15,312 bases of DNA from assembly GCA_021107695.1 (NCBI GenBank), contig JAIOSI010000005.1, forward strand, positions 1-15,312. The letters are read 5' to 3'. Under the pieces are notes generated by a model. It ran no database searches. It saw only the letters and a program-made list of their open reading frames with translations, and was not told where the DNA came from. Positions within the stretch are counted from its first letter, which is position 1, and every line of letters starts with the position of its first letter. The DNA is from a bacterium. Lineage in GTDB: Bacteria; RBG-13-66-14. Shown here piece by piece: positions 1-15,312 of this stretch. The translations under genes and the position numbers were made by a program.

Positions 1-56
1 ACGGCGACCAACTTACAGGGGCAGCTCCCTGCGCCTGCCCTCTTTGTATAATAACT

Positions 57-190: not shown

Positions 191-213
191 ATCTTAATTT
201 TTATTGTGGAGAA

Positions 214-519: not shown

Positions 520-548
520 TTGACCGTTTTCGTCGTCGGTGCTACCAT
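520..548 (+). promoter_or_regulatory. Candidate sigma-70 promoter for the secreted TIM-barrel-like gene
   Basis: TTGACC (520-525), a 17-base spacer and TACCAT (543-548) lie about 35 bases upstream of the ATG at 583. The -35 match is good and the -10 match moderate. A weak ribosome site (TAGGA) follows, eight bases before the ATG. Confidence 0.4.
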
Positions 549-582
549 CCACGGGCAACGAAAATAATATAGGAACACGCCC

Positions 583-2523: not shown

Positions 2524-2548
2524 AAAAGTGCCTCGTGAGAGACACTTT
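2522..2548 (-). terminator. Intrinsic terminator overlapping the stop of the opposite gene
   Basis: A 10-bp stem with one mismatch (2525-2534 with 2539-2548) has a GTGA loop. Read on the minus strand it runs into six T. It serves the minus-strand gene ending at 2555 and overlaps the TAA (2521-2523) of the plus-strand gene, giving a very compact convergent junction. Confidence 0.65.
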
Positions 2549-2554
2549 AGAGGG

Positions 2555-3193: not shown

Positions 3194-3895
3194 ATGACAA
3201 CCCTCCCCCAGCTTCAGGAAAATCTCACCAGCGTCCTCTCTCGCATTTCTTTTGCCCGGGGACGCTCGCCGAACGCTGCCAGCCAGGTGCGGCTGGTTGC
3301 CGTTACTAAATATGTAGAAGCAACTGTGCTGCCGCTGCTGAAGGAAGCCGGAGTCGAGCTTATCGGCGAGAACCGGGTTCAGGCGGCTCTGGCAAAACAC
3401 AAGGAGCTTAACGACAACGCCGGGCTTGCGTGGCACTTCATCGGGCGGCTCCAAAGCAACAAGATCAACAAAGTCCTCGACCTCTTTTCGATGATCCACT
3501 CGGTGGACTCACTCAAGCTGGCAGCGGGCATCTCCCAGCGTAGTCTGTCAAGTCCGATGCCCGTTCTCTTCGAGGTCAATCTCTCCGGCGAGGAGTCGAA
3601 GAGCGGCTTTTCCGCCGACGAGCTACGGGCGAGCTTTCCCGCCCTGCTCAAACTACCGGGGATTCTCCCGCGTGGTTTGATGACGATGGCGCCCTTCAGC
3701 GACAATCCTGAAGATGCCCGTCCGGTCTTTGCCGGGCTGCGCCAGCTCCGCGATGAGCTGCAATCTCGATATGAACTTGACAGCTTCACCGAGCTGTCAA
3801 TGGGGATGAGCGGCGACTTCGAGATCGCCGTGGAAGAGGGCGCGACCCTGGTGCGGGTCGGCTCGGCACTGTATGCCGAAACAAACACTGCGTAA
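3194..3895 (+). CDS. yggS: YggS/PLPBP family pyridoxal-phosphate homeostasis protein
   Basis: This is a single-domain TIM-barrel PLP-binding protein without known enzyme activity that buffers pyridoxal phosphate and affects amino- and keto-acid balance in the cytoplasm. Signatures are all present: LVAVTKY with the PLP lysine at K39, IGENRVQ, WHFIGRLQSNK, IHSVDS, LFEVNLSGEESKSGF, GLMTMAPF, and the C-terminal LSMGMSGDFEIAVEEGATLVRVGSALY, which is the phosphate-binding end. The length of 233 residues is normal for the family. I chose the ATG at 3194; a TTG five codons upstream is in frame, but family members begin close to this ATG. The ribosome site is weak (CAGG). In many bacteria this gene neighbours pilT, proC or cell-division genes; here it is followed by an MscS channel about 110 bases on, preceded by a possible separate promoter. 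Confidence 0.95.
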   Translation: MTTLPQLQENLTSVLSRISFARGRSPNAASQVRLVAVTKYVEATVLPLLKEAGVELIGENRVQAALAKHKELNDNAGLAWHFIGRLQSNKINKVLDLFSMIHSVDSLKLAAGISQRSLSSPMPVLFEVNLSGEESKSGFSADELRASFPALLKLPGILPRGLMTMAPFSDNPEDARPVFAGLRQLRDELQSRYELDSFTELSMGMSGDFEIAVEEGATLVRVGSALYAETNTA

Positions 3896-3907
3896 CCATG
3901 CGCTTTC

Positions 3908-3916
3908 TGCTATACT
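3908..3916 (+). promoter_or_regulatory. Candidate extended -10 promoter for the MscS gene
   Basis: TGC-TATACT is an extended -10 element located about 90 bases before the MscS start. I see no convincing -35 box, which such promoters can lack. It would let the channel gene be transcribed separately from yggS. Confidence 0.4.
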
Positions 3917-4005
3917 CCTAAAGGTGGCTTGTAAGAGTCCGCCTGGAGTGGCAACATCTGATTAGAACAGTGATACCTTTTGAAAAGCAACGCAAGGAGC
4001 AGTAA

Positions 4006-5145
4006 ATGGAAGGCAGCACCGCAGTAGCAACCGCTGAGATTACCGGCGGAACCTTTAATAACGTCTTTAAGGCGATCTTCTCTGGCAAGGGCGGCGCAAC
4101 CGCCTCTGGCTGGGAAGAGATCGTCATCGCCGTCGCTTTCTCCGTGGCGGTGGTCATCCTCGGCATTATTCTGGCAAAGATCCTCCGCTCGGTCTTCCGG
4201 CACATCGCCAAAAGACTGGCGAAGCTCACCAAAACCAATCTCGATGAGATGCTGGTGGAGTCCCTGGCGCAGCCGGTTCATAACGCGGCGATCCTCTCGG
4301 CGGTTTATCTGGCGTGGAGCCTCTACCCCTTCGACAAGCTGGGGCTGGAGAGCCTCGTCAGCGGCGCGCTCTTTGTCTTTGCGGTGCTGATCGCGATTAA
4401 GGGCATCCTCGGTCTGCTGATGGCATTCTTTAACTGGTACAGCACCAAGGCGGAGTCGGAGACCGGCGTTACTATGGGGCTGGACTTCATACCGCTGATT
4501 CGCAAGGTCGTCAGCGTTGCTATTTACTCCGTGGCTCTGATCATCGTGCTGGAGCATTTCGGCGTGGACATCGTCGCTCTGGTTACGACCTTAGGTGTTG
4601 CCTCAATGGCGGTGGCATTCGCGGCGCAGGATACCCTTGCCAACATGATCTCCGGCTTTGTGCTGATGACCGACCGCCCCTTCCGGGTTGGCGACCGGGT
4701 CAAGGTCGCCGGGGTCTATGGCGATGTTACCCGCATCGGGATGCGCTCCACCGACATCCTGACCCTCAACAACACCACGGTGGTCGTCCCCAACTCCACC
4801 ATCGCCGGGGAATACGTCGAGAACTTCAACTATCCGGACACCGTCCACAAGCTGAAGCTTAACATTGGTCTCGCCTACGGTACCGACCCCGAAGCGGCGA
4901 TTAAGACGATGCTCACTGCTGTCAGAGGAGCCAAAGGCGTCCTGAAAGATCCGGCTCCCAGTGCCTTCTTTATGGAGTTTGGCGATTTCTCGCTCAACTT
5001 CCTGATTGTCGCCTGGTGCAGGAGCTTTACCGAGGGGCTTGATGTTACCAACGCCATCAACGTCAAGCTCAACCGCACCCTGACCGATGGTGGCTACGAC
5101 ATCCCCTTCCCCATCCAGACCCTGCAGTTGAAGAATCTGGAATAG
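4006..5145 (+). CDS. MscS-family small-conductance mechanosensitive channel
   Basis: This 379-residue inner-membrane channel would open under membrane tension and release solutes during hypo-osmotic shock. Predicted membrane helices lie at about 38-58, 92-107, 117-141 and 166-183. They are followed by the pore helix TM3 at about 187-221 (LGVASMAVAFAAQDTLANMISG, rich in Gly/Ala) and the beta domain (DRPFRVGDRV at 223-232, VVVPNSTIAG at 259-268). A C-terminal alpha/beta vestibule domain ends at QTLQLKNLE. The arrangement has more N-terminal helices than E. coli MscS (three) and is typical of medium-length MscS-like proteins. The ribosome site AAGGAGC sits six bases before the ATG. The fecR-type gene follows after 64 bases without an obvious terminator, so the two may be co-transcribed. 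Confidence 0.95.
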   Translation: MEGSTAVATAEITGGTFNNVFKAIFSGKGGATASGWEEIVIAVAFSVAVVILGIILAKILRSVFRHIAKRLAKLTKTNLDEMLVESLAQPVHNAAILSAVYLAWSLYPFDKLGLESLVSGALFVFAVLIAIKGILGLLMAFFNWYSTKAESETGVTMGLDFIPLIRKVVSVAIYSVALIIVLEHFGVDIVALVTTLGVASMAVAFAAQDTLANMISGFVLMTDRPFRVGDRVKVAGVYGDVTRIGMRSTDILTLNNTTVVVPNSTIAGEYVENFNYPDTVHKLKLNIGLAYGTDPEAAIKTMLTAVRGAKGVLKDPAPSAFFMEFGDFSLNFLIVAWCRSFTEGLDVTNAINVKLNRTLTDGGYDIPFPIQTLQLKNLE

Positions 5146-5209
5146 AAAAGTTCTGCCTTGCTCCAACTGCTAGTTCACAAAACGCCCCTCCATTCCAAAG
5201 GAAAGAACA

Positions 5210-5869
5210 ATGAAACATGGCTCCCTGTTCACGCTGCTTATTCTGGCAGCCCTGATAACTCCGGTTGCTGCTCACACTTTGGTTGTTTACGAAGTTACCG
5301 GCGTCGCCGAGCGGGTTGATGTAGAACCTACCCTCCGTCTTTCACTGCGTGACGAGCTTCCCGAAGGTGCCGTTGTCCAGACAGGGTCTCACTCCGGTCT
5401 GGTACTCAGGCGGGTTGACGGCTCTGTTCTGCGCCTGGACTCTAACACTCGCCTGCGGATTGACCGCCTCGGCGAGTTGGGTTATCCTCTACGCGGTGAG
5501 TTCTCCGTTATCATGGGAATTGTCGGCGCGGCGGTTCAACGAGTAACCGCCGATCACCCCTTCATCGTCAACACGCCCTCCACCTCCGCCGCCGTGCGCG
5601 GAACCCGCTTTGTCTCCGGAATCGACGAGGGAGGCAAAGAGATTCTCTGCACCACCGAGGGTGCCGTGGATGCCAGCCTGCCCGGAGCCGACGAAGCGGT
5701 TTCCGTGGAAAAGGGCGACGGTGTCTGGCTCGATCCCGAATCCGGTGAGGTCGATGCACGCCCGATGACCGACGCGGAGTTCAACCGCTACAACGCCCTC
5801 TCCGCTCCTGCTGGTTCGACCGTCGAGGAGAAACCACGCATGTTTAGAGATTCCTGGCCGGTCTGGTAG
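5210..5869 (+). CDS. Secreted FecR-domain protein
   Basis: This is a 219-residue exported protein. Residues 1-21 form a signal peptide (MKHGSL, hydrophobic core, PVAA before HTLVV). The FecR domain spans about 30-160, with EGAVVQTG (52-59), a beta-helix-like LVLRRVDGSVLRLDSNTRLRI stretch and the diagnostic AVRGTRF (128-134) followed by VSGIDEGGKE..CTTEGAV. FecR domains in sensor proteins signal to ECF sigma factors, but this protein has no N-terminal cytoplasmic or transmembrane sensor part. No FecI-type sigma or TonB receptor is nearby, so it is more like the stand-alone periplasmic FecR proteins of unknown role. The ribosome site AAAGGAAAG precedes the ATG. A strong hairpin without a T tract (5889-5925) lies just downstream. 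Confidence 0.88.
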   Translation: MKHGSLFTLLILAALITPVAAHTLVVYEVTGVAERVDVEPTLRLSLRDELPEGAVVQTGSHSGLVLRRVDGSVLRLDSNTRLRIDRLGELGYPLRGEFSVIMGIVGAAVQRVTADHPFIVNTPSTSAAVRGTRFVSGIDEGGKEILCTTEGAVDASLPGADEAVSVEKGDGVWLDPESGEVDARPMTDAEFNRYNALSAPAGSTVEEKPRMFRDSWPVW

Positions 5870-5888
5870 GTCAAAGGAAAGTAAAGCG

Positions 5889-5925
5889 GCAGGTGTGGAG
5901 AATCCACAATTATCTCCACCCCTGC
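5889..5925 (+). other. Strong hairpin between the FecR and EAL genes
   Basis: A 13-bp stem with a single mismatch (5889-5901 with 5913-5925) has an 11-base loop and lies 20 bases after the FecR gene stop and 49 before the EAL gene. No T run follows, so it may stabilise the upstream mRNA or attenuate rather than terminate. Confidence 0.55.
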
Positions 5926-5973
5926 CAATGGTTAGTTAAGCAAAAGTAACCGCGTATCCAACTGGGTTAACTA

Positions 5974-7257
5974 ATGTCAATCTCCAACCAGAATAGCTCC
6001 AAGCCGGATATTCGCCTGAGGGCGGACCTGCTCCGCTATAAAAATCTCCTCTACGACCGCCTCACCGGACTGCCGACCCTTCCGGTGGCTCTCAACGATA
6101 TCCGCCGGATGCTCGACCGGGACGACCACGCCGTCGGGCTGATCTGCGTCGAGCTATCCCGAACCACCACCCTGGAAAGCTCCTTCGGCTGGCAGTCCAC
6201 CGACGAACTTATCTCCCGTCTGGCAAAGGTTCTCTCCATCTTCAACGACGATGTGATGGACGCTGAGGGCATAGTTTTTGAAGAGGCAATCCGCACGCCG
6301 AGCTTCTTCCTCTTCGTCACCGGCAACTGTCTGACCACTGGGAAGGTTGCCGAGGTCGTCGAGATGGTACGGGAGTTCTATAAAATCAGTACCCTGGGCA
6401 AGGAACTCCGCGAGAACAACCTCAATGTTAGCATCGGCTATTCGCTAATCGTGGACGACCCGCTGGTTCGCTTTGAACGCGTCGTTTACACCGCAATCCG
6501 CGAAGCCAGAGAGATGGCATCCGACGAGGACAAGCGCGAGGAGATGCTCAAGTATCGAGAACTGGCACAGATCATCTCCGGCGAGCGCATCAAGACCCGC
6601 TTCCAGCCGATTGTTTACATGAAGGACAAGGTGGTGCTGGGTTACGAAGCCCTCAGTCTTGGTCCGGAGAAAACCATTTTCCAGAACGCCGAACACCTCT
6701 TCTCCTTTGCCTCCAACTCTGGTCTCTCCGGCGAGCTGGATAATCTCTGTCGTCGCCACGCCGTCTCCGTGGCACCGGAGGTCATCGGCGACGAGGAGCT
6801 GCTCTTCCTCAACACAACCCCGCTCTCCTTTACCGATCCCCGCTTCTTCAGCGATCTCGAAGAGAGCGATGCCTACAAATCCCAGCGAATAGTCCTCGAA
6901 CTGACCGAGCGCACCGCCATCCACGATCTCACCGCCTTCAAGGACAGCCTGACCCGCTACCGCGAGAGGGGCTTCCTCATCGCCGTGGACGATGCCGGTG
7001 CAGGCTACTCCTCCCTCAATACCATCGCCGAGCTGCGACCGGAGTTTCTCAAGTTCGACCGGGCGATGGTTACCGAAATCCACAAGAACAAGATCAAGCA
7101 GGAGCTGCTCCTGACCCTCCTCGACCTGGCAAGCCGCATCGACAGCCGGGTCATCGCCGAGGGTATTGAAACCGTCGAGGAGTTCGAGAAGCTCAAAGAG
7201 ATGGGTGCCGAACTCGCCCAGGGCTACTACGTCTCCCGACCCACCGAAGGATTTTAG
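5974..7257 (+). CDS. Degenerate GGDEF plus EAL domain protein (cyclic-di-GMP)
   Basis: This is a 427-residue cytoplasmic protein with no membrane segment. Residues about 25-185 are a GGDEF domain (DRLTGLP at 28-34), but the signature loop is lost: near residues 107-113 the sequence is RTPSFFL instead of GGDEF, so cyclic-di-GMP synthesis is not expected. Residues about 200-427 are an EAL domain with the metal- and substrate-binding residues in place: E225 in YEALS, N280, E309/E312 in LELTER, D339-D340 in DDAGAGYSSL, K360 in LKFDR, E396 in IAEGIE and Q416 in QGYY. It could therefore hydrolyse cyclic-di-GMP, with the dead GGDEF as a possible GTP-sensing regulator as in known GGDEF-EAL hybrids. 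The start ATG lacks a good ribosome site. Repeats begin within about 35 bases of its stop. Confidence 0.93.
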   Translation: MSISNQNSSKPDIRLRADLLRYKNLLYDRLTGLPTLPVALNDIRRMLDRDDHAVGLICVELSRTTTLESSFGWQSTDELISRLAKVLSIFNDDVMDAEGIVFEEAIRTPSFFLFVTGNCLTTGKVAEVVEMVREFYKISTLGKELRENNLNVSIGYSLIVDDPLVRFERVVYTAIREAREMASDEDKREEMLKYRELAQIISGERIKTRFQPIVYMKDKVVLGYEALSLGPEKTIFQNAEHLFSFASNSGLSGELDNLCRRHAVSVAPEVIGDEELLFLNTTPLSFTDPRFFSDLEESDAYKSQRIVLELTERTAIHDLTAFKDSLTRYRERGFLIAVDDAGAGYSSLNTIAELRPEFLKFDRAMVTEIHKNKIKQELLLTLLDLASRIDSRVIAEGIETVEEFEKLKEMGAELAQGYYVSRPTEGF

Positions 7258-7319
7258 ACTCGCGATAACGGGTAACTCAGCTCCAATGCTGATTCCCGCG
7301 TATCCGCTTCCCGGTGGTC

Positions 7320-7522
7320 GGCAACGCGGTGCGTTGCATCACAAAGCTGGGCTTCGCCCAGAACCCCCTGAGATCGTCCGCTCCCGTTGGTCACTCACAA
7401 ATCTGGTGTAAACAACGTAGGGGCCGACCTTTAGGTCGACCCGTTGAATTGGATTAGGTATAGCAAACGGCGGGCATTTCTGCCGATGAAGCAATGCCCG
7501 CCTTACATTAACACCTTGCGAT
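7320..7522 (+). repeat. Long intergenic repeat, copy A (modular hairpins)
   Basis: It matches 9717-9921 over its whole length in the same orientation, with scattered substitutions and two small indels. Order of modules: hairpin 1 (7321-7337, GCAACGC-GGT-GCGTTGC); hairpin 2 (7347-7361, CTGGGC-TTC-GCCCAG); a CCGCTCCCGTTGGTC segment; a GACCTTTAGGTC palindrome; and a GCGGGCATT..AATGCCCGC stem near 7472-7502. Confidence 0.85.
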
Positions 7523-7599
7523 TGTGTAAAAAAGTTCCCCTCCCCCCAGTGGGGGGAAGGAGGAGGTGTCTGAACAACTGCAAGGTTTTGACGTTGTAG

Positions 7600-7626
7600 G
7601 GGCGGACCTATGTGTCCGCCCTTTTT
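7600..7626 (+). terminator. Terminator-like repeat hairpin, plus strand
   Basis: An 8-bp perfect stem (GGGCGGAC/GTCCGCCC) with a 6-base loop is followed by TTTTT. It would stop transcripts arriving from the EAL gene. The hairpin itself is an exact inverted copy of 57-78, so a repeat module may have been co-opted as a terminator. Confidence 0.55.
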
Positions 7627-7645
7627 CCACACCCTCTCGCAATAC

Positions 7646-7671
7646 AAAAAAGGGCGCAGCACGCTGCGCCC
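7646..7671 (-). terminator. Terminator-like hairpin, minus strand
   Basis: The stem GGGCGCAG/CTGCGCCC (7652-7659 with 7664-7671) is followed on the minus strand by six T. It would stop transcripts leaving the tyrosine-rich gene pair, facing the plus-strand terminator 20 bases away. Confidence 0.6.
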
Positions 7672-7719
7672 CTACGTTTATCAATACCACCGCATTACTA
7701 ATCGCCAAACCATATCTGT

Positions 7720-7800
7720 AAGCGACCAGCGTGAGCGGTAGGACACATCAAGGTATTCTGACCGAAGGTCAGCCCTGTGATGCAACGCACAGCGTTGCCT
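7720..7800 (-). repeat. Modular hairpin repeat, copy C
   Basis: On the minus strand it begins next to the stop codon of the tyrosine-rich gene. It carries hairpin 1 (7782-7798, GCAACGC stem), hairpin 2 (7758-7772, CTGACC-TTC-GGTCAG when read on the minus strand) and, further on, the GCTC-CGCTGGTCGCT-type segment. The module order is the same as in copies A and B. Confidence 0.75.
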
Positions 7801-8251
7801 AATAGCCCGGATCGTAGTAGTAGTAATCCACGTCGGTATCCGCCATGTTGTTGATGATGTTCATCGAGGTGGCGTGAGAGTCCATCATCGTGTCGTACAT
7901 GATGTCGTAGCTCGCCTGGTTCATTCCGCTGCCACCGCTTCCGGTGTCGTACTCGTAGCCACTGTCGTCGTAGGAGGTGTAGTAATCGCTGCCTGAGTAG
8001 TCGTCGTAGGAGCTGTAGCTGGTGTCGCTGGTTCCGTAGGGATAGAACATCCCGCTGGCGGCGTCGAAGTAGTAGTACATGTCCATGCTGGGATCGTAGG
8101 CAAAGTAGAAGTCGTTGTACGGCTCGTAGAAGTAGTAGTAGTAACCGTCGCTGGTGGCATAGAGTCCGCTGGCTTCGTCGTAGTACCAGCCGTCCTGGGC
8201 AAAGGTGGCAACTGCCATCAGCAGCAGCGCGAGTACGAGTAGCTTCTTCAT
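7799..8251 (-). CDS. Secreted tyrosine-rich OCRE-like protein, paralogue 1
   Basis: This is a 150-residue exported protein. Residues 1-18 form a signal peptide (KKLLVLALLLMAVATFA, likely cut before QDG). Residues 22-73 are an aromatic repeat array with units [YF][DE]xxx[GD]x[YF] at 24-31, 42-49, 52-59 and 62-69, spaced ten residues for the last three. This looks like the tyrosine octamers of eukaryotic OCRE domains, whose short beta strands pack Tyr rings. Residues 74-150 are a Ser/Tyr/Asp/Gly-rich low-complexity tail. AGGAG (8258-8262) precedes the ATG. It follows paralogue 2 by 76 bases, with no terminator between, so both are probably one transcript. Its TAG stop lies at the edge of repeat copy C. 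A role in a cell-surface or cross-linkable matrix is a guess; the OCRE comparison is by eye only. Confidence 0.85.
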   Translation of the reverse strand: MKKLLVLALLLMAVATFAQDGWYYDEASGLYATSDGYYYYFYEPYNDFYFAYDPSMDMYYYFDAASGMFYPYGTSDTSYSSYDDYSGSDYYTSYDDSGYEYDTGSGGSGMNQASYDIMYDTMMDSHATSMNIINNMADTDVDYYYYDPGY

Positions 8252-8327
8252 CGGGTTCTCCTTGTGTCAGTGATTTCCGCTGCCGGGAGTCCATCCCCCG
8301 GCTATCTTATGAGGTAAAGCGAATGGT

Positions 8328-8762
8328 CTAGTAGTCGTCGTAGCTGTCGTAGTTATCTTCATCGCCGGTGTAGTAGTAATGGTCCGTGTCGCCGTCGATG
8401 CCCTCATAGGCGTTCATCGAGGAGACGTAATCCTCGTTCATCGCATTCATCATGGCGTCGTAGCTCGACTCGCTCATGGTGTCGGTGGTGGCGTACCCAC
8501 TACTACTGTAGTCATCGTAGGAGGCGTAGCCAGTATCAGCCGTGCCGTAGGGATAGAACATCCCACTGGCAGCATCGAAGTAGTAGTACACGTCCACGTT
8601 GGGATCGTAGGCGAAGTAGAAGTCGTTGTACGGCTCGTAGAAGTAGTAGTAGTAGCCGTCGTCGGTGATGTAGAGTCCGCTGGCTTCGTCGTAGTACCAG
8701 CCGTCCTGGGCAAAGGACGCAAACACCATCAGCAGGATCAGCGCGAGTAGTAGCCGTTTCAT
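8328..8762 (-). CDS. Secreted tyrosine-rich OCRE-like protein, paralogue 2
   Basis: This 144-residue protein has the same design as its neighbour: signal peptide 1-18 (KRLLLALILLMVFASFA), tyrosine octamer array at 22-73, then a Ser/Tyr/Asp/Met-rich tail. Between residues 19 and 74 the two paralogues differ at only five positions and are also nearly identical in DNA, while the tails have diverged. That points to recent duplication, gene conversion, or strong constraint on the array only. This tail is longer past the shared SYDxMM segment and ends DSYDDY. AGGAG (8769-8773) precedes the ATG, and a consensus-like promoter lies about 70 bases upstream. It is first gene of the probable two-gene operon. 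Tyr makes up a large share of the array, but no Cys is present, so disulfides are not involved. Confidence 0.85.
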   Translation of the reverse strand: MKRLLLALILLMVFASFAQDGWYYDEASGLYITDDGYYYYFYEPYNDFYFAYDPNVDVYYYFDAASGMFYPYGTADTGYASYDDYSSSGYATTDTMSESSYDAMMNAMNEDYVSSMNAYEGIDGDTDHYYYTGDEDNYDSYDDY

Positions 8763-8832
8763 CTTTCACTCCTTTTAGGTTTCAAGCACATCTGTTACAC
8801 CTGAACACACAACCAAGCTGAAACTTAAGGAC

Positions 8833-8861
8833 AGTATATCAGTCCGTTTGGATTTCTTCAA
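8833..8861 (-). promoter_or_regulatory. Sigma-70 promoter of the tyrosine-rich gene pair
   Basis: On the minus strand TTGAAG (8856-8861), a 17-base spacer and TATACT (8833-8838) form a near-consensus promoter. It lies about 70 bases before the paralogue 2 start codon. The -35 box overlaps one arm of an 8-bp inverted repeat (CAACTTTA at 8859-8866 with TAAAGTTG at 8875-8882), a possible operator. Confidence 0.7.
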
Positions 8862-8883
8862 CTTTATGGGGTAGTAAAGTTGA

Positions 8884-8909
8884 AAAGCCGCCGGATAACC
8901 GACGGCTTT
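8884..8909 (-). terminator. Intrinsic terminator of the small secreted-protein gene
   Basis: An 11-bp stem with one mismatch (8884-8894 with 8899-8909) and a 4-base loop ends in TTTT on the minus strand. It lies about 30 bases after the stop at 8940 and just before the next promoter, so the gene to the right is a separate transcription unit. Confidence 0.6.
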
Positions 8910-8939
8910 GTCTTAACAATCAACTAAGGAGGTTGGAGC

Positions 8940-9545
8940 CTAGAGTTCGTTTTTGATGTAGCCCCAACTGGTCAGCTCAATCTGGCTACCACCGTCGTCC
9001 ACGATCACCCGGAACATATAAGCGGGGGCACTGGAGCTACTCCACCCAGAGCCGCCATCAAAGGCGTTATGGGAACCGTCGGAGTTGAAGTCGTAGGCGC
9101 AATACGGCTGAGGAGGAGAGCCGATGGGATAGAAGCACAGATAGAACTCATCTCCACTGGTCAGGTTAACACCCAGAGAGGTGAGGTCCACATCAAGCCA
9201 GCCTTCGCCGGTCGCCTCGCCACCGAGGTAGTTCAATATTCCGGTACCGTAAGGATTGCCATCGTCGGGCAGACCACTGCCATCCCGAGGACAGACCAGC
9301 AGATCAAAGGGAGCGTCGTAGTCCGTAGCCGGGGCGATATAAACGCGTGCGGTAACAACCTGAGCATCGAAGGGCATCGTAAACCAGACCCCGCGATCAA
9401 ATTCATACAAACTATGATGATATGTACCATCGTCCCACAGCAGCTCCTCGGTAATCAGGGGCTGGGACGTATCAACGAGAACAGCAGGGGAAGTTGCCAA
9501 AGCAACAGCCACCATCGCAACAAGAAACAGGATCATCTTTTTCAT
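8940..9545 (-). CDS. Small secreted beta-rich protein with TSWGYIK tail
   Basis: The protein has 201 residues from the ATG at 9545, chosen because AGGAGG lies seven bases upstream and the product then starts with a signal peptide (MKKMILFLVAMVAVALATS). The frame upstream of this ATG encodes no plausible signal. The mature part looks like a single jelly-roll or beta sandwich (TMPFDAQVVTARVYIAPATDYDAPFDLLVC, then GWLDVDLTSLGVNLTSGDEFYLCFYP). Such folds are seen in T9SS-type and other secreted proteins that describe parts of larger surface assemblies. It has only two or three Cys. The last ten residues, LTSWGYIKNEL, resemble the short SWGxIK-type C-terminal tail I recall from secreted proteins of candidate phyla. 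Function is unknown. It is a single-gene unit with its own terminator. Confidence 0.8.
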   Translation of the reverse strand: MKKMILFLVAMVAVALATSPAVLVDTSQPLITEELLWDDGTYHHSLYEFDRGVWFTMPFDAQVVTARVYIAPATDYDAPFDLLVCPRDGSGLPDDGNPYGTGILNYLGGEATGEGWLDVDLTSLGVNLTSGDEFYLCFYPIGSPPQPYCAYDFNSDGSHNAFDGGSGWSSSSAPAYMFRVIVDDGGSQIELTSWGYIKNEL

Positions 9546-9941
9546 CTGTCTTCCTCCTTGAGCAAAGTCTCCACAGGCTAACGCAGGTTTTCGTAGTCTC
9601 CAAAAATCAGCATTCGCACAGTAGCAGCTTTTTTCAAAAAAAACAAGTGTAGAGGGATTATTATCGGATGTATGCAAAAGGGCGGACACCAATCCCCATG
9701 GATCAGGTTCGCCCCTGGCAGCGCAGTGTGCTGCACCACAAGACTGACCTTCGGTCAGAACATCCCTGAGATCGTCCGCTCCCGCTGGTCGCTCACATAT
9801 CTGGTGTAAACAACGTAGGGGCCGACCTTTAGGTCGGTCAGCAGAATTGAATTAGGTATAGCAAACGGCGGGCATTTATTGCCGATGAGGCAATGCCCGC
9901 CCTACATTAACACCTTGCGATCGCCCTCTCTAGAAAAACCG
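9546..9941. other. Intergenic region with leader and long repeat copy B
   Basis: No gene is seen. 9546-9690 is the AT-rich 5' region of the small secreted-protein gene, with a weak TTGAAA-type -35 candidate but no convincing -10. 9680-9716 holds a degenerate GGGCGGAC hairpin. 9717-9921 is repeat copy B, which ends about 20 bases from the leuD stop. Confidence 0.55.
9717..9921 (+). repeat. Long intergenic repeat, copy B (modular hairpins)
   Basis: This is a direct copy of 7320-7522. Hairpin 1 (9718-9734) is GCAGCGC-AGT-GTGCTGC and hairpin 2 (9744-9758) is CTGACC-TTC-GGTCAG. Compared with copy A the stem bases differ on both sides, so pairing is kept. The 3' half, from about 9800, is almost identical to copy A. 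Confidence 0.85.
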
Positions 9942-10457
9942 CTAACAGTCGCAGCCGCAACCACAACCGCCACAGGTTGACGCGGCTTGCTCTTTGAGGC
10001 TGGCTGCTAATCCTCCGGCTTCGATGATCGCCTTGACCTTCGGTGGATAGGCTGGGAAGCTGAACTCTTTGCCAGCCACCCGGACGATGCCGGCATTGGC
10101 ATCCACCGTAACCTCGTCGCCGAGTTTATAGGCATCCACGGCGGCGGGGCATTCGACCACCAGCAGTCCCTGGTTAATCGCGCTGCGGAAGAAGATCCGG
10201 GCGAAGCTCTTTGCGATTATCGCCTGCACCCCCACGTGGCGCAGCCCCTTGCTCGGATGTTCCCGCGAGGAGCCGCAGCCGAAGTACTCCCCGGCAATGA
10301 CGATGTCGCCGGGCTTGACCTCTTTGCTGAAGGACTCGTCGAGGTCCTCGAAGAGGTGCGGGGCGATCTCCTCCGGCGTGGAGCAGGTGTAGGTGTACTT
10401 GCCGGGGAACATCTGATCGGTGTTTACGTCGTCGCCATACTTCCATGTTTTAGCCAT
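9942..10457 (-). CDS. leuD: LeuD-type aconitase-family dehydratase small subunit with Cys-rich tail
   Basis: This is the 171-residue swivel-domain partner of the LeuC-type subunit encoded just upstream. The pair would isomerise 2-isopropylmalate to 3-isopropylmalate in leucine synthesis, or related citramalate or homoaconitate substrates. Family marks are YGDDVNTDQMFPGKYTYT (7-24), GDIVIAGEYFGCGSSREH (50-67, with the substrate-binding GCGSSRE) and ARIFFRSAINQGLL. The archaeal-style short LeuD/HacB type fits the length, except for a C-terminal extension TCGGCGCGCDC with five Cys (162, 165, 167, 169, 171). Substrate cannot be fixed from the loop (KYTYT) alone. GAGGT lies eight bases before the ATG. 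A perfect 7-bp hairpin (10485-10503) lies in its leader. A truncated copy of its own start lies 174 bases upstream at the leuC stop. Confidence 0.92.
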   Translation of the reverse strand: MAKTWKYGDDVNTDQMFPGKYTYTCSTPEEIAPHLFEDLDESFSKEVKPGDIVIAGEYFGCGSSREHPSKGLRHVGVQAIIAKSFARIFFRSAINQGLLVVECPAAVDAYKLGDEVTVDANAGIVRVAGKEFSFPAYPPKVKAIIEAGGLAASLKEQAASTCGGCGCGCDC

Positions 10458-10484
10458 CGGACTACCTCACAAAAAGTGAATGTG

Positions 10485-10503
10485 CTTTGTCTGGACGACA
10501 AAG
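10485..10503 (-). other. Hairpin in the leuD leader
   Basis: A perfect 7-bp stem (CTTTGTC/GACAAAG) with a 5-base loop sits about 30 bases upstream of the leuD start, between the broken copy and the intact gene. No T tract follows immediately, so it is more likely an mRNA structure than a terminator. Confidence 0.45.
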
Positions 10504-10518
10504 TTTAACCTAACTAGA

Positions 10519-10548
10519 AGCGACCAACGGGAGCGCATACGCGGGAGT
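10519..10548 (-). repeat. TCCCGCGTA..GGTCGCT repeat module
   Basis: On the minus strand this reads like the modules at 14571-14594 and 7292-7320 (plus strand): TCCCGCGTA, a few variable bases, then GCTCCCGYTGGTCGCT. It lies between the truncated leuD copy and the intact leuD, and is evidence that a dispersed element inserted there. Confidence 0.6.
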
Positions 10549-10553
10549 GAATG

Positions 10554-10631
10554 TTACCCTGTCATATCGGTACGTCGCGAAAGTGAGTGCAGCATCATGC
10601 TGCCGTCGCCGTATTGCCAGATTTTAGCCAT
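10554..10631 (-). pseudogene. Truncated duplicate of the leuD start
   Basis: Overlapping the leuC stop by one base (TGATG), a 25-codon frame starts MAKIWQYGDG, matching MAKTWKYGDD of the intact leuD; 24 of the first 30 bases agree, and the bases before the ATG (GAGGT..TC.G) also match. After codon 10 the sequence becomes a hairpin (10589-10603, GCAGCAT-C-ATGCTGC) and a segment like repeat module 1, followed by a stop. The simplest reading is that the original, translationally coupled leuD was broken by a repeat insertion, while an intact copy, duplicated or regenerated, lies downstream. It might instead act as a leader peptide that couples leuC to leuD. Confidence 0.65.
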
Positions 10632-11902
10632 CAGATGACCTCCCGTGGGTCTGTGATAACGCCGGTGAGGGCGGAAGCTGCCACTGTGGCGGGGCTTGCC
10701 AGGGCGATGAAGGATTCCTTGCAGCCCATCCGCCCCTTGAAGTTGCGGTTCGCCGTGGAGAGGCACAGCTCATCGGGAGCCAGTGCGCCTTCGTGGGCAC
10801 CTAGGCAGGGACCGCAGCCCGGGTTGAGGATCACCGCTCCGGCACTGTGGAGGGCGGCGATGGTGCCGTCGGTGAGGGCGGCATCGTACACCGCCTCGCT
10901 GGCAGGCAGCACCAGCAGGCGAACGCTGGGGGCGATCTGCTTACCCTTCAGCACGGCGGCGGCCTCGCGGAGGTCGCTCAACCGACCGTTGGTGCAGGTG
11001 CCGATGAGTCCCTGCTGGAACGGCTTGCCGACCAGCTCGCTTACCGGCTTGATGTTGTCCACCTGATGGGGCCAGGCGATGACCGGAACCATCGTGCTGA
11101 GGTCAATTGCGTGGCGGGCTTCGTACTCGGCATCGTCGTCCGCCTCGATGATGTCGGCTTCGTTCCACTCGATTCCGTTGCTTTTCATCCAGTTACGAGC
11201 GAGGTCGTCGATGGGCATAACGGCGTTCTTTGCCCCCATCTCGGCGGCGAGGTTGGTGATGGTCAGGCGGTCGTCCATGGTCAGGCTGGCGAGTCCAGCT
11301 CCGGCGAACTCCACGGAACGGTAGTTCGCCCCGGCGGCACCGATCTTGCCTATCAGGGTCAGGATCGTATCTTTGGCATAGACCCCGGCGGGGAGCTTGC
11401 CGGTGAGGTCGAAGCGGATCGTCGTCGGTACCTTGAACCAGGTCTCGTCCTGAATCCAGAGTCCTGCCGTCTCGGTGCGGTCAACTCCGCAGGCGAAGGC
11501 TCCCAGCGCGCCGTGGGTCGGCGTGTGCGAGTCGCTGCCGACGATGAGCTTCCCCGGTGCGGCGTAGCCCTTCTCTGGCAGCACCTGATGACAGATTCCG
11601 CCGCGTCCGACATCGTGGAAGTTCTTAATCCCCTGGGCGGCGACGAACTCACGAATCTTGACGTGGTTGCTCGCCTCCTTCTGTCCGGGAGCGGGAACGG
11701 TGTGGTCGAGGATGACCAGAATCCGTTCCGGGCGGTTTACCTTACCCTCCTCGCCAGCGATTTTCTTAAAGTTTCCGATAATCGCTGCGGTGTTGTCGTG
11801 GGATAGCACAATGTCCGGGGCGGCGGTGATGATTTCGCCCGCCCGCACCTCGCGTCCGGTGCGTTTAGAGAAAAACTTCTCGGCAAAGGTTAGTCCAGCC
11901 AA
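10631..11902 (-). CDS. leuC: LeuC-type aconitase-family dehydratase large subunit
   Basis: This 423-residue catalytic subunit carries a [4Fe-4S] cluster and works with LeuD in the leucine (or related 2-oxoacid elongation) pathway. Cluster ligands are visible: C303 in GTCTNGR and C363 and C366 in NPGCGPCLGAHEG. Other marks are LSHDNTAAI (33-41), DHTVPAP, VGSDSHTPTHGALGAFACGV (121-140) and MTVCNM-type equivalent TITNLAAEMGAKNAV. The size fits the short LeuC2/HacA class rather than the roughly 470-residue enterobacterial LeuC. The start is TTG at 11902, set by a perfect AGGAGG (11908-11913) five bases upstream. Translation would couple through TGATG to the truncated leuD copy. No other leucine genes (leuA, leuB) or T-box leader are in view. 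Confidence 0.94.
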   Translation of the reverse strand: MAGLTFAEKFFSKRTGREVRAGEIITAAPDIVLSHDNTAAIIGNFKKIAGEEGKVNRPERILVILDHTVPAPGQKEASNHVKIREFVAAQGIKNFHDVGRGGICHQVLPEKGYAAPGKLIVGSDSHTPTHGALGAFACGVDRTETAGLWIQDETWFKVPTTIRFDLTGKLPAGVYAKDTILTLIGKIGAAGANYRSVEFAGAGLASLTMDDRLTITNLAAEMGAKNAVMPIDDLARNWMKSNGIEWNEADIIEADDDAEYEARHAIDLSTMVPVIAWPHQVDNIKPVSELVGKPFQQGLIGTCTNGRLSDLREAAAVLKGKQIAPSVRLLVLPASEAVYDAALTDGTIAALHSAGAVILNPGCGPCLGAHEGALAPDELCLSTANRNFKGRMGCKESFIALASPATVAASALTGVITDPREVI

Positions 11903-12097
11903 TCCAGCCTCCTGAGGAGTTTTTACCAGCGTACGTTTGGGGTGAAATGTCAGCAGCTTTTTAACAAATCTTCGGGCAACGCGGACAATGGAACAGACGC
12001 TTAACCAGCGAATGAGGATAATGGATTAACGCTACGACAATAACAAGAGGGCAACGCTAACAGGGCGAGAGAAGCCCATACCGTGTCATCAGCTTTT
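11903..12097. other. Intergenic region between leuC and the GT2 gene
   Basis: No gene or repeat module is clear. It should hold the leuC promoter, but no convincing -35/-10 pair stands out. An inverted repeat GTCATCA..TGATGAC (12085-12091 with 12103-12109) spans the stop codon of the GT2 gene and may act in its 3' end formation. Confidence 0.4.
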
Positions 12098-13261
12098 TTA
12101 TTGATGACTACTCTCCGCTTTTTTCCAGGTTGCCGGGCTGCCTGTGGTGATTAAACGCCAGATCCCGCCCAGGGCGGCGGCGTTGACCATCACAAAATGT
12201 CCGGGCAGGGCGAGGAGCTTACCGACGATTCCCCTTGCCTGCCAGCCCCGGCTCATCGCCCACCATGCCAGCAATCCCCAGAGCAGACCGCCGCCCAGAA
12301 TTGCCGTTACAAGGAACATCGGCAGTTGACCAGCGATTGTCCCGGGCAGGGAAAGCCCCAGCGCGCCGAGGTAGAAGATCGGTACCAGCCAGCGCAGCAG
12401 CTTGTGGAAGAGCAGGCGCAGCCCCACCGTGGGGCGTTTCCAGCAGCCGTGGAGGTAGAAGTACGCCCCGAAGTCACGGGCGATCATCCGCACCTTACGG
12501 CGGAACTCCTCGGCGGGTTTGACGGCGGTTCGCTCGAACGCCACCGCCTCTGGCACCCAGACCACCCGATAGCCCGCCGTGGCAATGGTCAGGGGGACGA
12601 TGGAGTCGTCGGCGCGATGGGACGGTACATCGGGAATCAGCTCTCGACGGGCGGCGTAGATGGTTCCCGCACCCATCAACATTGTGCCGGAGCGGGACTC
12701 CGCCGCCTTGATCAGATCTTCATAACGCCAGTACAGCCCCTCGCCGCCGGCGGTTCCGGAGCGGTCGGTTCCCTCCAGCCGCAGCCGACCACAGGCTGCC
12801 CCGACCTCGGTATCGGCGAAGACAGCGGTTAGCTGCCGCAGAGCGTCCGGGGCGTAGCGGGAGTTGGCATCGGAGAAGCAGATGATCTCGGCCTCAGGGG
12901 CAGCGGCGATGCCCTTCTTTAACCCTTCGACCTTTCCCGCCTGAGGCTCTTGGCGAATCAGGCTCAGGCGCGGGTCGGCAATCCCCTGGACGATCTCGTC
13001 GGTTCCGTCGCTGGAGCCGTCGGAGATGACGATGACCCGGAGCCGCTCCGTCGGGTAGTCGAGGGCGAGGGTGTCGCGCAGCTTCTTGCCGATGACCGCC
13101 GCCTCGTTGTAGGCGGGAATCAGCAGGGCAATCCGGGGCAGGTAGCTGGCATCCCGCCGGGGGCGGTAGTTGCGCAGCGCGCCGACCAAGACAATCAGCA
13201 GCGGATAGCCCAGATAGACGAAGGCGATCAACCCCAGCAGAATCCAGACGGCAACAGTCAT
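12098..13261 (-). CDS. Membrane glycosyltransferase family 2
   Basis: This 387-residue processive-type GT2 has an N-terminal membrane helix (4-28), a cytoplasmic GT-A catalytic domain (about 40-270) and C-terminal membrane helices at about 288-308, 312-335 and 350-370. Catalytic motifs: IPAYNEAAVIGKKL (48-61), DGSSDGT (81-87) with the nucleotide-binding Asp, FSDANS (129-134) as the DxD equivalent, GAGTIYAARRE (197-207), ADDS (217-220) as the base region, and RRKVRM (254-259) in the position of the QxxRW motif. It resembles enzymes that elongate or transfer sugars for surface polysaccharides such as PgaC/IcaA-like and related synthases. Donor and product are unknown. The GT4 gene is nearby on the same strand, implying a shared surface-glycan role, but about 290 bases of hairpin repeats separate them. 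The start ATG at 13261 lacks a strong ribosome site. Confidence 0.93.
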   Translation of the reverse strand: MTVAVWILLGLIAFVYLGYPLLIVLVGALRNYRPRRDASYLPRIALLIPAYNEAAVIGKKLRDTLALDYPTERLRVIVISDGSSDGTDEIVQGIADPRLSLIRQEPQAGKVEGLKKGIAAAPEAEIICFSDANSRYAPDALRQLTAVFADTEVGAACGRLRLEGTDRSGTAGGEGLYWRYEDLIKAAESRSGTMLMGAGTIYAARRELIPDVPSHRADDSIVPLTIATAGYRVVWVPEAVAFERTAVKPAEEFRRKVRMIARDFGAYFYLHGCWKRPTVGLRLLFHKLLRWLVPIFYLGALGLSLPGTIAGQLPMFLVTAILGGGLLWGLLAWWAMSRGWQARGIVGKLLALPGHFVMVNAAALGGIWRLITTGSPATWKKAESSHQ

Positions 13262-13381
13262 GGCGGGTTTCCAGAGGAATTAGGGTTGGATATTTACGAG
13301 AGTTTCCAGATTTGTAGTGGCATGGCACAACGAAACCATCTGCCATTTGATGATTATCAAAAACGCATACCCCCTGCGTTA

Positions 13382-13556
13382 GCCCCCCTTCCCGATCTTC
13401 CCCCAATGGGGGGAAGGGGACGAGGTGTAGCGACCAGCGGGAGCGGATGACCGTGGCGGTCGAACGCAAAGCGTTTATCTGCCCCGGTCGCGAAGGGGTG
13501 ATGCAACGCACCGCGTTGCTGTCCAGCTTCAAGCTGGCAACGCACAGCGTTGGCTA
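13382..13556 (-). repeat. Dense hairpin array, repeat copy E
   Basis: Between the two glycosyltransferase genes lies a C/G hairpin (about 13399-13416) and the GCTCCCGCTGGTCGCT segment. Five stems then follow in a row: GACCG/CGGTC (13449-13461), AACGC/GCGTT (13463-13475), GCAACGC/GCGTTGC (13503-13519), CCAGC/GCTGG (13523-13537) and GCAACGC/GCGTTGG (13537-13553). Most have 3-base loops. The array ends at the stop codon of the GT4 gene. No gene lies in 13262-13553. Confidence 0.75.
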
Positions 13557-14495
13557 CCAGGATTGCTCCGTAGGAGCTTTGGGTGGCGATTCCCCCGGCT
13601 CCAGGATCGTTCCGTGGTCGATCAGCCGCTGGTAGAGCTTCAGGTAGTCTTCTGCCAGACGAATGTGGTTGAACTGTTGCTCCACCTGCTGGCGGCAGGC
13701 GGCGGGGGCAACCTCGTCAATCCGCTCCACGGCTCGACACATCTCCTCCACAGAGTCGCAGCGGAAGCCGACATTCGACGGAATCAGCTCTGGCATCGAG
13801 CCGTTGTTCGTCGTGATGACCGGGGTTCCCGACGCCATCGCCTCGATGACGACATTGCCGAAGGGTTCCGGCCAGAGGGTGGGGAAGATCAACGCCTTCG
13901 CCCCGGCGAGGAGATCGCGCTTCTCCTGCCCACCGACCATGCCAACGTAGGTAACGTTGCGGCGGAAGTTGAGGCGGCGACCGCCAGCGACGACGAGGTT
14001 GATGCCGGTTCGCTTCGCAACCTCCAACGCCCAGCCGATGCCCTTGACGCTCCAGCGTACCTTGGAGAGGAAGAGGAAGTAGTCGCTCTTATTCGGATTG
14101 AAGGTGTACTCGGAGACGTCGAGACCGTTGTAAACGTAGTGCTGGGCATTATGACGACGGGCGTGATCCCGCGACAGAAAGCTGGTGTTGGGATTAAAGG
14201 TCTCGCCGGTACAGTAATTTCCGCCTAGGGTTACCAGAACCGGGCAGGGCAGCTCAACCCGGGGTCCGGTACGCAGATGCATAACATCGATACCGTCGGG
14301 GAGCTTCCGCGCCATGTCCTCCTGGCTGCTGATCCAGACGCACTGGGCAAAATCCGACTGGCTGCCGGGGAAGCTCATCAGGTAAACCTGATGCCCCAGC
14401 TCCGCCAGCCCCTTCGCCAGCCACATCACCACCCGCTCCGAACCGCCGTACTTCTTTATCGGCAGCACAGCGTGATAATAAAGAGCAATCTTCAC
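13554..14495 (-). CDS. Glycosyltransferase family 4 (GT-B fold)
   Basis: This 313-residue cytoplasmic or membrane-associated glycosyltransferase probably adds one sugar from a nucleotide donor during surface polysaccharide or glycolipid assembly. The N-terminal domain has KKYGGSERVVMWLAKGLAELGHQV (14-37), the usual glycine-rich acceptor loop. The C-terminal domain begins near 137 with YFLFLSKVRWSVKGIGWALE. Its donor-site block is ALIFPTLWPEPFGNVVIEAMASGTPVIT (201-228), with E211/E218-type residues of the EX7E motif. It is somewhat shorter than typical GT4 proteins (about 350-400), with a compact N-terminal half. The start is GTG at 14495; a G-rich ribosome-binding stretch (GGGGGAG) directly upstream is supplied by repeat DNA. 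The TAG stop is the first triplet of hairpin array E. Its tail after about residue 295 (PGESPPKAPTEQSW) is unstructured. Confidence 0.93.
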   Translation of the reverse strand: MKIALYYHAVLPIKKYGGSERVVMWLAKGLAELGHQVYLMSFPGSQSDFAQCVWISSQEDMARKLPDGIDVMHLRTGPRVELPCPVLVTLGGNYCTGETFNPNTSFLSRDHARRHNAQHYVYNGLDVSEYTFNPNKSDYFLFLSKVRWSVKGIGWALEVAKRTGINLVVAGGRRLNFRRNVTYVGMVGGQEKRDLLAGAKALIFPTLWPEPFGNVVIEAMASGTPVITTNNGSMPELIPSNVGFRCDSVEEMCRAVERIDEVAPAACRQQVEQQFNHIRLAEDYLKLYQRLIDHGTILEPGESPPKAPTEQSW

Positions 14496-14499
14496 TCAA

Positions 14500-14585
14500 C
14501 TCCCCCATCCCCCTCATCTTGAGGGGGCAGATTCGCGACGGTCAGGTTTAGATTAAGAGATGATTATTCCCGCGTACACGCTCCC
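14500..14585. repeat. 86-base direct repeat, copy 1
   Basis: It recurs 122 bases on (14622-14707) with few differences. Each copy holds an 8-bp hairpin CCCCCTCA-TCT-TGAGGGGG, a CTCGCGACGGTCAGG-type segment and a TTATTCCCGCGTAYA end. The copy ends five bases from the GTG start of the GT4 gene and supplies its G-rich ribosome-binding stretch. Confidence 0.85.
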
Positions 14586-14621
14586 GCTGGTCGCTACCCA
14601 ATATTGACCTAACCTCAATCC

Positions 14622-14707
14622 CTCCCCCATCCCCCTCATCTTGAGGGGGCAGACTCGCGACGGTCAGGTTTAGATACAGGCAACGATTATTCCCGCGTAC
14701 ATGCTCG
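14622..14707. repeat. 86-base direct repeat, copy 2
   Basis: This is a near-identical copy of 14500-14585, with the same hairpin and the same order of segments. It diverges after ACATGCTCGC, where copy 1 continues into the GCTCCCGCTGGTCGCT module. 14496-14770 has no gene. Confidence 0.85.
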
Positions 14708-14770
14708 CTTCATTAGCTCGTAATTACCTATTTTACAGAAAAATGCAGCGAACGAAGAGAGCGAACGATA

Positions 14771-14825
14771 TTAAAGGTCTTCCGGGCGAAGCCCGGTCTC
14801 GTGATGCAGCGCACTGCGCTGCTCG
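14771..14825 (-). repeat. Modular hairpin repeat, copy D, inside a coding region
   Basis: On the minus strand it holds hairpin 1 (14806-14822, GCAGCGC-AGT-GCGCTGC) then hairpin 2 (14782-14796, CCGGGC-TTC-GCCCGG), in the same order and spacing as copies A, B and C, with the same ATCAC link. It overlaps the 3' end of the membrane protein gene and is translated as its last 17 residues. Confidence 0.85.
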
Positions 14826-15312
14826 TCCAGTGGTTCCAGCTCGATCTCAATCGCGGGCAGTCGCTTTGCCAGGCGGTTGTAAACCACGACGACCAGGGTC
14901 TCCAGCCCGGCGAAGATCAGGGCGAACAGCGGCGGGGCGAGGAATCCGCCCATCAATGCGGAGAGGAACTCGTCCTCGGTAAAGCCAAGCTCGCCAGAGA
15001 CGATGAGGTAGGCGATGAACAGCCCCAGCCCGATAATCCCCAGCACGATCCAGCCGAGGAGAAAGCCCATCCTGAAGATTGATTTTGGTTCCAGCCGTTT
15101 CAGCTCGCAACGCGTCGCGTACTCTCCCCTTGATGTCAGCAATGCTCCTGCCAGTGCCAGCGCGCCGTTCTCCAGCTGCTTCGCGGCGGTCTGGAAAAGT
15201 TCCCCAACCTGGGCGAGGTCAGTATCCAGCTGGTGAACCTCCTCCAGCGACAGTTCGACGTACTCCACCCCGGCACCATTTGCCATGACCGGCGGGCCGA
15301 CGGGAACCCGCT
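14771..15312 (-). CDS. Two-helix membrane protein with repeat-encoded tail, 5' partial
   Basis: The frame is open to the window edge. An ATG at 15286 would give 171 residues, but it has no ribosome site, so the gene may begin outside. Numbering from that ATG: residues 1-60 are a soluble, helix-prone part (VEYVELSLEEVHQLDTDLAQ). LKRLEPKSIFRMGF (62-75) leads into membrane helix 1 (about 73-97), a Glu-rich loop, helix 2 (about 107-135), then YNRLAKRLPAIEIELE (136-151). I recall a family of small bacterial and archaeal membrane proteins with the pattern P-x-S-(V/I)-F, two helices, and YNxxAK..IEIELE as its natural end. The rest (155-171, EQRSALHHETGLRPEDL) is translated from the hairpin repeat. 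Function is unknown. Confidence 0.75.
   Translation of the reverse strand, partial: RVPVGPPVMANGAGVEYVELSLEEVHQLDTDLAQVGELFQTAAKQLENGALALAGALLTSRGEYATRCELKRLEPKSIFRMGFLLGWIVLGIIGLGLFIAYLIVSGELGFTEDEFLSALMGGFLAPPLFALIFAGLETLVVVVYNRLAKRLPAIEIELEPLDEQRSALHHETGLRPEDL

Follow-up and report, generated by a model that had tools for sequence, protein, structure and literature searches.

The DNA analyzed here, a stretch of 15,312 nucleotides from a bacterium of the GTDB lineage RBG-13-66-14 (GenBank assembly GCA_021107695.1, contig JAIOSI010000005.1, positions 1 to 15,312; the whole stretch is termed the window), carries five copies of a dispersed repeat built from two short hairpins, hairpin 1 and hairpin 2. 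About three in ten copies judged in the genome have the 5' edge of their hairpin 1 placed exactly at a TAG or TAA stop codon, and in one docking register the third base of the stop codon is also the first base of the hairpin stem and is paired. Comparison with protein family profiles and orthologues indicates that the docked stops, where tested, are native gene ends and that the same gene end exists with and without the element. We lean, with some reserve, toward a lineage-specific and probably mobile family of mosaic hairpins specialized for gene ends and resembling the repetitive extragenic palindromic (REP) sequences and bacterial interspersed mosaic elements (BIMEs); mobilization and RNA function are what we infer.

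Results

Docking of Hairpin 1 on Stop Codons

Copies were scored with R1, a covariance model built from 55 aligned copies that include four of the five window copies, the copy near 13.5 kb being left out. R1 gives 188 matches (161 + 27) in 115 hit-enriched contigs (771 kb), and all 188 entered the docking count, with 6 lying too near a contig end and 182 being judged; 177 of the 188 were used for the background rates, the orientation of neighbors, the TAG-excess test, the cluster counts and the composites. The 5' edge of hairpin 1 abuts a stop triplet in 63 of the 182 copies, 50 of them with an open reading frame (ORF) of at least 80 codons upstream. The 63 docked copies comprise 27 in which the G of TAG is shared with the stem (TA/G), 26 directly behind a complete TAG, six directly behind TAA, two in which TAA shares a base with the stem and two directly behind TGA. 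The corresponding background before GC is 2.9% for TA/G, 0.5% for TAG, 0.6% for TAA and 1.4% for TGA. A set of contigs, C1-C47 (266 kb), chosen regardless of matches, contains 34 judged copies, of which 15 abut a stop triplet and 12 have an ORF of at least 80 codons upstream. The original prediction had proposed examining copy position relative to gene ends and had overlooked this exact junction.

The same junction is apparent from the gene side. For counting copies, a lax hairpin pattern that allowed three mismatches and required no link was rejected, giving 804 matches compared with 366 in shuffled sequence; a similarly lax pattern was used at gene ends, and matches at other positions of the 150 nt there are expected to include chance ones. 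In the hit-enriched contigs a hairpin-1 match lies at most 1 base from the stop at 54 of 561 gene ends (44 TAG, 8 TAA and 2 TGA), with an offset of 0 in 29 genes and -1 in 24, the next commonest offset occurring in 3 genes. Five control modules together reach positions -1 to +1 of the stop in 1 of 210 genes (module M3, 0/56; GTAGGGGC, 0/70; hairpin 2, 0/48; reversed hairpin 2, 0/16; reversed M3, 1/20), and the alternative leading hairpins CCAGCTTGAAGCTGG and GCAGCATSATGCTGC are found at the stop in 8 of 30 and 2 of 13 genes, respectively. No antisense hairpin-1 match starts within 30 nt of any of the 561 stops; docked copies are in sense by definition, and it is this absence of an antisense counterpart that carries weight.

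Compared with genes that have other repeats downstream, docked genes show an excess of TAG (Fisher p 1.2e-4) and fewer TGA stops (2/54 versus 18/123, p 0.039). The hairpin is present at 52 of 482 TAG triplets at gene ends, at 7 of 1027 behind ORFs of 60-149 codons and at 43 of 8451 behind ORFs shorter than 60 codons. The base preceding a docked TAG is C in 19 of 44 genes versus 58 of 228 other TAG genes (p 0.027), and C is the commonest base before docked stops overall (25/50). Terminator-like sites occur behind the hairpin at 7 of 54 gene ends versus 113 of the 507 others, a difference that is not significant (p 0.12). TAG is also the commonest stop codon at the gene ends counted in this genome (272 TAG, 199 TAA and 90 TGA, n = 561; 101, 58 and 40 in C1-C47, n = 199), whereas TGA leads among the genes sampled from relatives G002 and G003.

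The Third Base of the Stop Codon

At 25 sites TA directly precedes a stem of at least five pairs, and here stem position 1 and its partner form G-C in 22 cases and A-T in 3. The gene rplL ends GAGATCAAG-TAG in this genome and GAGATCAAG-TAA in genomes G001-G004, and the M18 peptidase gene, which stops with TAA in this genome, has TAG in each of the four relatives from the same family. Stems of other sequence also occur at stops. The CCAGCTT/AAGCTGG stem lies behind TAA in 5 genes and TAG in 2, whereas hairpin 1 has 44 TAG and 8 TAA stops before it (p 0.004), a comparison picked post hoc that excludes offset-shifted, GCAGC-type and unclear cases; GCAGCTT/AAGCTGC and GCAGCC/GGCTGC variants are likewise found at stops. 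The simplest reading, provisional given the small numbers, is that the element brings the third stop base and that the host part of the junction is TA.

Docked Stops Compared with Native Gene Ends

Ten docked proteins were compared with family profiles. RplL reaches the profile end (125 of 125 positions), as does the gdh product (NF041398, 410 of 410), and the M18 peptidase (462/463), an OsmC protein (133/134) and a DsrE protein (157/159) end close to it; for docked proteins L133, L033 and L164 the comparison is uninformative. The UvrC end differs from several profile ends, yet three orthologues align with UvrC to its last residue. The orthologue search covered G001-G004, G007 and G008, and the rplL, gdh and uvrC orthologues from other genera of the same family align to the last residue of the query, while same-family M18 orthologues align to residue 495 or 496 of 496. 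No hairpin-1 sequence is present in the ~72 nt behind the same-family orthologues of these four genes. Premature stops brought by the element are thus unsupported, as the tested proteins end at native C termini.

The clearest filled and empty site is the pair of gdh genes within this genome, both of which end GGAATCTACCCC-TAG. One carries the hairpin followed by ~300 nt of repeat-rich sequence, and the other, without the hairpin, continues into different sequence with a T-run terminator.

Copy Number and Distribution

The assembly spans 1.83 Mb in 315 contigs and is 70.6% complete. The genome-wide covariance-model search that the original prediction had proposed finds at least 150 copies in it, all 150 candidates scored of 1532 matching R1. 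The 14 other genomes searched have 0-7 R1 matches each, with none outside the family. The exact motif of the element has no match in genome_contigs (84,980 species) or viral_contigs, from which near relatives may be missing, and a literature search found no published description of this repeat family. Copies are found in gene-end and intergenic contexts, and 52 of the 177 matches fall inside crude, uncurated ORF calls of at least 100 codons. In G003, which belongs to another genus of the same family, one copy stands right behind the TAG of an ORF read by eye (TAG followed directly by CAACGCAGTGCGTTGCATCACAG) and two more follow in tandem, so docking is not limited to this genome.

Folding, Pairing and Covariation

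The four window copies with two hairpins fold into two hairpins, each with a 3-nt loop, with energies between -19 and -24.5 kcal/mol and z scores versus shuffles between -2.2 and -4.3, and the compound copy at 13.5 kb folds at -26.2 kcal/mol (z -2.8 versus shuffles). The 55-copy alignment was drawn from 92 pattern matches, 37 without hairpin 2 being excluded. Paired cells make up 97.2% of the aligned stems compared with 17-50% when the partners are slid, and both sides have changed in 8 of 14 pairs (51 cells in total). The hairpin-1 search pattern is biased toward paired stems, and a rescan requiring only the loop DGT and the link AYCAC gives 302 sites, with all seven positions paired in 126, at least five in 163 and at most four in 139, many of the last probably being chance matches to a short pattern.

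The exchange between A-U and G-C at pair 4 of hairpin 1 largely marks two subfamilies because it travels with the link base: in the 163 sites with at least five pairs, A-T accompanies ATCAC in 82 and G-C accompanies ACCAC in 54. The conserved ATCAC link of the original prediction is present; in the window copies the link reads ATCAC or ACCAC. More independent exchanges are few, yet they do occur (pair 1, G-C 134, A-T 6 and C-G 5; pair 7, C-G 144 and T-A 4). The hairpin-2 types CTGGGC, CTGACC and CCGGGC are each seen with both hairpin-1 subfamilies, and a tandem array of 102-nt units (L147:4514-4754, minus strand) carries the compensated stem variant ACAACGC/GCGTTGT. Full pairing is kept by 21 of 35 stems that differ in one change from the nearer of the two consensus stems (chance expectation 16%), by 12 of 16 with two changes (5.6%), by 1 of 7 with three (2.1%) and by 0 of 15 with four (0.8%).

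Relatedness of the copies was taken into account with a tree-aware null, a home-made stand-in for R-scape in which substitutions are redistributed on a FastTree tree in 500 simulations. For the 55 copies (51 distinct), none of the 500 simulations matches the pooled covariation or the paired fraction; three pairs have p ≤0.01 before correction in one or both of two runs, and none of the single pairs is significant after 14-fold correction (best E 0.084). For 125 distinct hairpin-1 copies the paired fraction is 0.921 compared with a null maximum of 0.882, with 0 of 500 simulations reaching the observed value, while the pooled G falls short of significance (p 0.15) and a low p is seen at pair 4 only (0.01). 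We conclude that the stems stay paired, though the statistical case is weaker than the raw counts make it look. The selection on structure proposed in the original prediction is borne out insofar as pairing lies above the tree-aware null, and is weaker than it had stated once relatedness is counted; against the phylogenetic expectation that it had named as the yardstick, the pooled signal and paired fraction of the 55 copies stand out, but no single pair does after correction.

Mosaic Architecture

The modules are arranged in the order 7-bp hairpin 1, the link AYCAC, hairpin 2 or a module termed F, and then M3 or a module T, in several combinations. Within 400 nt, neighboring copies among the 177 matches are placed tail-to-tail 17 times, in tandem 18 times and head-to-head twice, forming the spaced mosaic units of alternating orientation that characterize BIMEs. 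A separate GTAG-headed, REP-like repeat, which begins with GTAGGGGC, occurs in the window at 7417-7442 and 9815-9839 and is present in G000 and relatives G002, G004-G006, G008, G010 and G011; it does not abut stops (0 of 70 gene ends carrying it). With a long DNA query, the matches in seven relatives are confined to the last 52 bases, which are the GTAGGGGC part.

Copies in the Window

All five copies proposed in the original prediction are present as R1 matches (7321-7363 on the plus strand, 7756-7798 on the minus, 9718-9760 on the plus, and 13475-13519 and 14780-14822 on the minus), with the hairpin-1 and hairpin-2 stems and stem changes as it described them. Two of its positions, 7720 and 14771, belong to real copies but are the far ends of minus-strand copies. 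Its statement that most copies share hairpin 2 holds for four of the five, the copy at 13.5 kb carrying module F (CCCTTCGCGACC) in that place.

Copy 1 (7321-7363, plus strand; 70.6 bits) has hairpin 1 GCAACGC/GCGTTGC, the ATCAC link and hairpin 2 with CTGGGC and GCCCAG around a TTC loop; it is not docked and lies 63 nt past the stop of an EAL gene, with module M3 (CGCTCCCGTTGGTCACT) behind it at 7379-7395 (plus). Copy 2 (7756-7798, minus; 65.7 bits) has hairpin 1 and a CTGACC/GGTCAG hairpin 2 and adjoins the TAG stop at 7799-7801 (minus) of the gene at 7799-8251. Copy 3 (9718-9760, plus; 64.0 bits), with hairpin 1 GCAGCGC/GTGCTGC and hairpin 2 CTGACC/GGTCAG, is free and placed amid minus-strand genes. 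Copy 4 (13498-13553, minus) is compound, and its R1 match at 13475-13519 has the lowest score of the five, 31.8 bits. It starts with a CAACGC/GCGTTG hairpin one base past the TAG stop at 13554-13556 (minus) of the gene at 13554-14495, followed by CCAGCTTGAAGCTGG, hairpin 1 with ATCAC, and module F (CCCTTCGCGACC...; 13475-13497, minus), which stands in for hairpin 2 in part of the family. Copy 5 (14780-14822, minus; 68.1 bits) has hairpin 1 GCAGCGC/GCGCTGC and hairpin 2 CCGGGC/GCCCGG and is read through by the ORF at 14771-15286 (minus), which ends ...QRSALHHETGLRPEDL and has GAG where docked copies show TAG. This ORF may have lost its docking-site stop and gained a short C-terminal tail from hairpins 1 and 2. 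Further M3 modules are located at 9777-9793 (plus), 14579-14595 (plus), 7721-7738 (minus) and 13429-13446 (minus).

The gene adjoining copy 2 is one of two tandem paralogues, 7799-8251 and 8328-8762 (both minus), which encode Tyr/Asp-rich, secreted-looking proteins and are 84% identical over 255 nt; both stop with TAG, which hairpin 1 follows in the first and not in the second, and the protein of 7799-8251 has no match in Pfam. Two 54-nt direct copies of a CCCCCTCATCTTGAGGGGG-type repeat, 98% identical, are placed at 14500-14553 and 14622-14675. Rfam gives one sub-threshold match in the window (7647-7716, E 0.29), away from the hairpins, and a tRNA as the single match in eight loci, none being at hairpins.

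Search for a Mobilizing Enzyme

The enzyme search covered three protein families, PF01797, PF13358 and the reverse transcriptase family RVT_1, with ~30% of the genome missing from the assembly. Within this scope there is no match to Y1_Tnp (PF01797), the family of the REP-associated tyrosine transposases (RAYTs) that the original prediction had suggested looking for, and none to DDE_3 (PF13358) of the IS630-type transposases. The single RVT_1 match (L162:48-1262, plus strand, contig C292) lies in a 404-amino acid ORF that was rejected as the mobilizer, the submitted part being best matched by the antiviral Drt2 (336 bits, cut-off 390). Y1_Tnp genes occur in 10 of the 15 genomes compared, including four of the same family, and these same-family genomes have 0-7 R1 matches. 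For the small mobile element considered in the original prediction, the filled and empty sites fit and a mobilizing enzyme among the three families does not come forward.

Discussion

In the reading preferred here, a copying enzyme that recognizes structure would spread the element and set the end of the hairpin behind the TA of a stop codon, where the first base of the element would rebuild the stop and leave the protein unharmed. Copies at gene ends would then be retained, as a hairpin against the stop may be harmless or useful; on the mRNA, a ribosome still a few codons short of termination would run into the hairpin, which would afterward shield the 3' end.

A number of observations weigh against this reading. 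No stop triplet is found at the hairpin in 119 of the 182 copies, and the upstream neighbor of undocked copies is orientation-random in crude gene calls (43 same, 39 opposite and 50 unclassed). Gene ends are favored ~21-fold over TAG behind short ORFs, which a bare TAG target cannot explain, and this weak use of TAG elsewhere counts against simple targeting. The rplL of G007, from another family, ends TAG, and TAG is also the stop of gdh in two of four same-family relatives and of uvrC in three of three, which does not discriminate; supply of the third base by the element is hence unproven. Neither a right-hand boundary nor a duplicated target could be found among the copies listed, because the tails are mosaic, and no candidate mobilizing enzyme was found with three families searched in ~70% of the genome. 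Docked copies are fully paired in 37 of 45 cases and free copies in 86 of 117 (p 0.31), so nothing links structure to a role at the stop, and this equal pairing counts against a simple RNA-function story as well.

The last point bears on a rival explanation in which the hairpin is a selected RNA element, kept for its action at stops by slowing terminating ribosomes or by stabilizing or ending the mRNA, with copying being incidental. This is a serious possibility, held here as the less probable one: exact sense placement at gene stops, the preference for gene-end TAG over other TAG and the rarity of TGA among docked genes all fit it, and REP sequences within 15 nt of stop codons in Escherichia coli are reported to stall ribosomes (PMC12306157). 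Yet pairing is no better in docked than in free copies, the hairpin is missing from 507 of 561 gene ends and the orthologues from other genera lack it. Rather doubtful, in our estimate, is a mobile hairpin that targets the translation stop itself, in sense, behind the TA of TAA or TAG, rebuilding the stop without a RAYT by a gene-end route such as the transcript or the terminating ribosome. A plain REP family mobilized by a RAYT, with the stop codon coming from the REP head, is unlikely; the hairpin, the copy number, the clustering as in BIMEs and the position at gene ends would fit, four same-family genomes do have Y1_Tnp genes, and the ends of GTAG REPs are reported to often give a TAG stop to flanking ORFs (Di Nocera et al. 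2013, PMC3733652). Against it, C and not G is commonest before docked stops, a GTAG head is present in just 10 of the 182 copies, Y1_Tnp is absent from the assembled genome and the same-family genomes that have it contain few R1 matches. Intrinsic terminators or DNA-uptake signals repeated by happenstance would account for hairpins at gene 3' ends, some as inverted pairs, and are very improbable, as no T-run stands right behind either hairpin in the copies displayed (by eye), about two-thirds of the copies are undocked and orientation-random, and the hairpins have no Rfam match.

Comparison with Known Systems

To our knowledge, whether REP sequences gather at gene ends by targeting or by selection is unsettled. 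The present family sharpens this question with its exact stop junction, its stem-borne stop base and a filled and empty paralogue pair, and hairpins of different stems (GCAACGC, GCAGCGC, CCAGCTT and GCAGCTT) occupy the same place. If insertion is targeted, the repeat could multiply in gene-dense DNA without breaking proteins.

Integron attC sites have the core boxes GTTRRRY and RYYYAAC, and the consensus GTTGCAT does not fit GTTRRRY (by eye), so an attC site was rejected. Correia and IS630-type miniature inverted-repeat transposable elements (MITEs) duplicate a TA target and have terminal inverted repeats with TA on both sides. The junction of this family is likewise at TA; TA at both ends is seen in 0 of 17 tail-to-tail composites, judged by eye with the right edge undefined.

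REP sequences are 20-40-nt hairpins, high in copy number and mainly extragenic, with a GTAG (or CGTC) head and a cognate RAYT (Y1_Tnp). The repeat described here is such a high-copy, mainly extragenic hairpin, and membership of the GTAG-headed REPs was rejected on the rarity of the head. The REP/BIME-like nature proposed in the original prediction points to the right neighborhood, given its short hairpins, a copy number of at least 150, clusters of mosaic build in tail-to-tail and tandem arrangement, and a location at gene 3' ends. GTAG REPs and BIMEs, as described in PMC3733652 and by Nunvar et al. (2010, PMC2817692), share with the present family short high-copy hairpins in mosaic or inverted clusters, a position 3' of genes and compensatory stem changes. 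Unlike these, the family rarely has the GTAG head (10/182), lacks a stop triplet at the hairpin in 119 of 182 copies, and has an exact junction at which, in one register, the third base of the stop is paired within the stem. It also combines two distinct hairpins in a constant order, and the search for a RAYT in the genome, 70.6% complete, found none. Its hairpin resembles the E. coli REPs near stops, as reported in PMC12306157, in lying just past the stop, so placed that a terminating ribosome would encounter it, and differs in a distance of 0 or -1 nt and in nearly exclusive use of TAG and TAA. Together, the stops of GTAG REPs and the E. coli REPs near stops mean that docking is not unheard of, and among relatives of the known REP/BIME repeats this family stands out as unusual.

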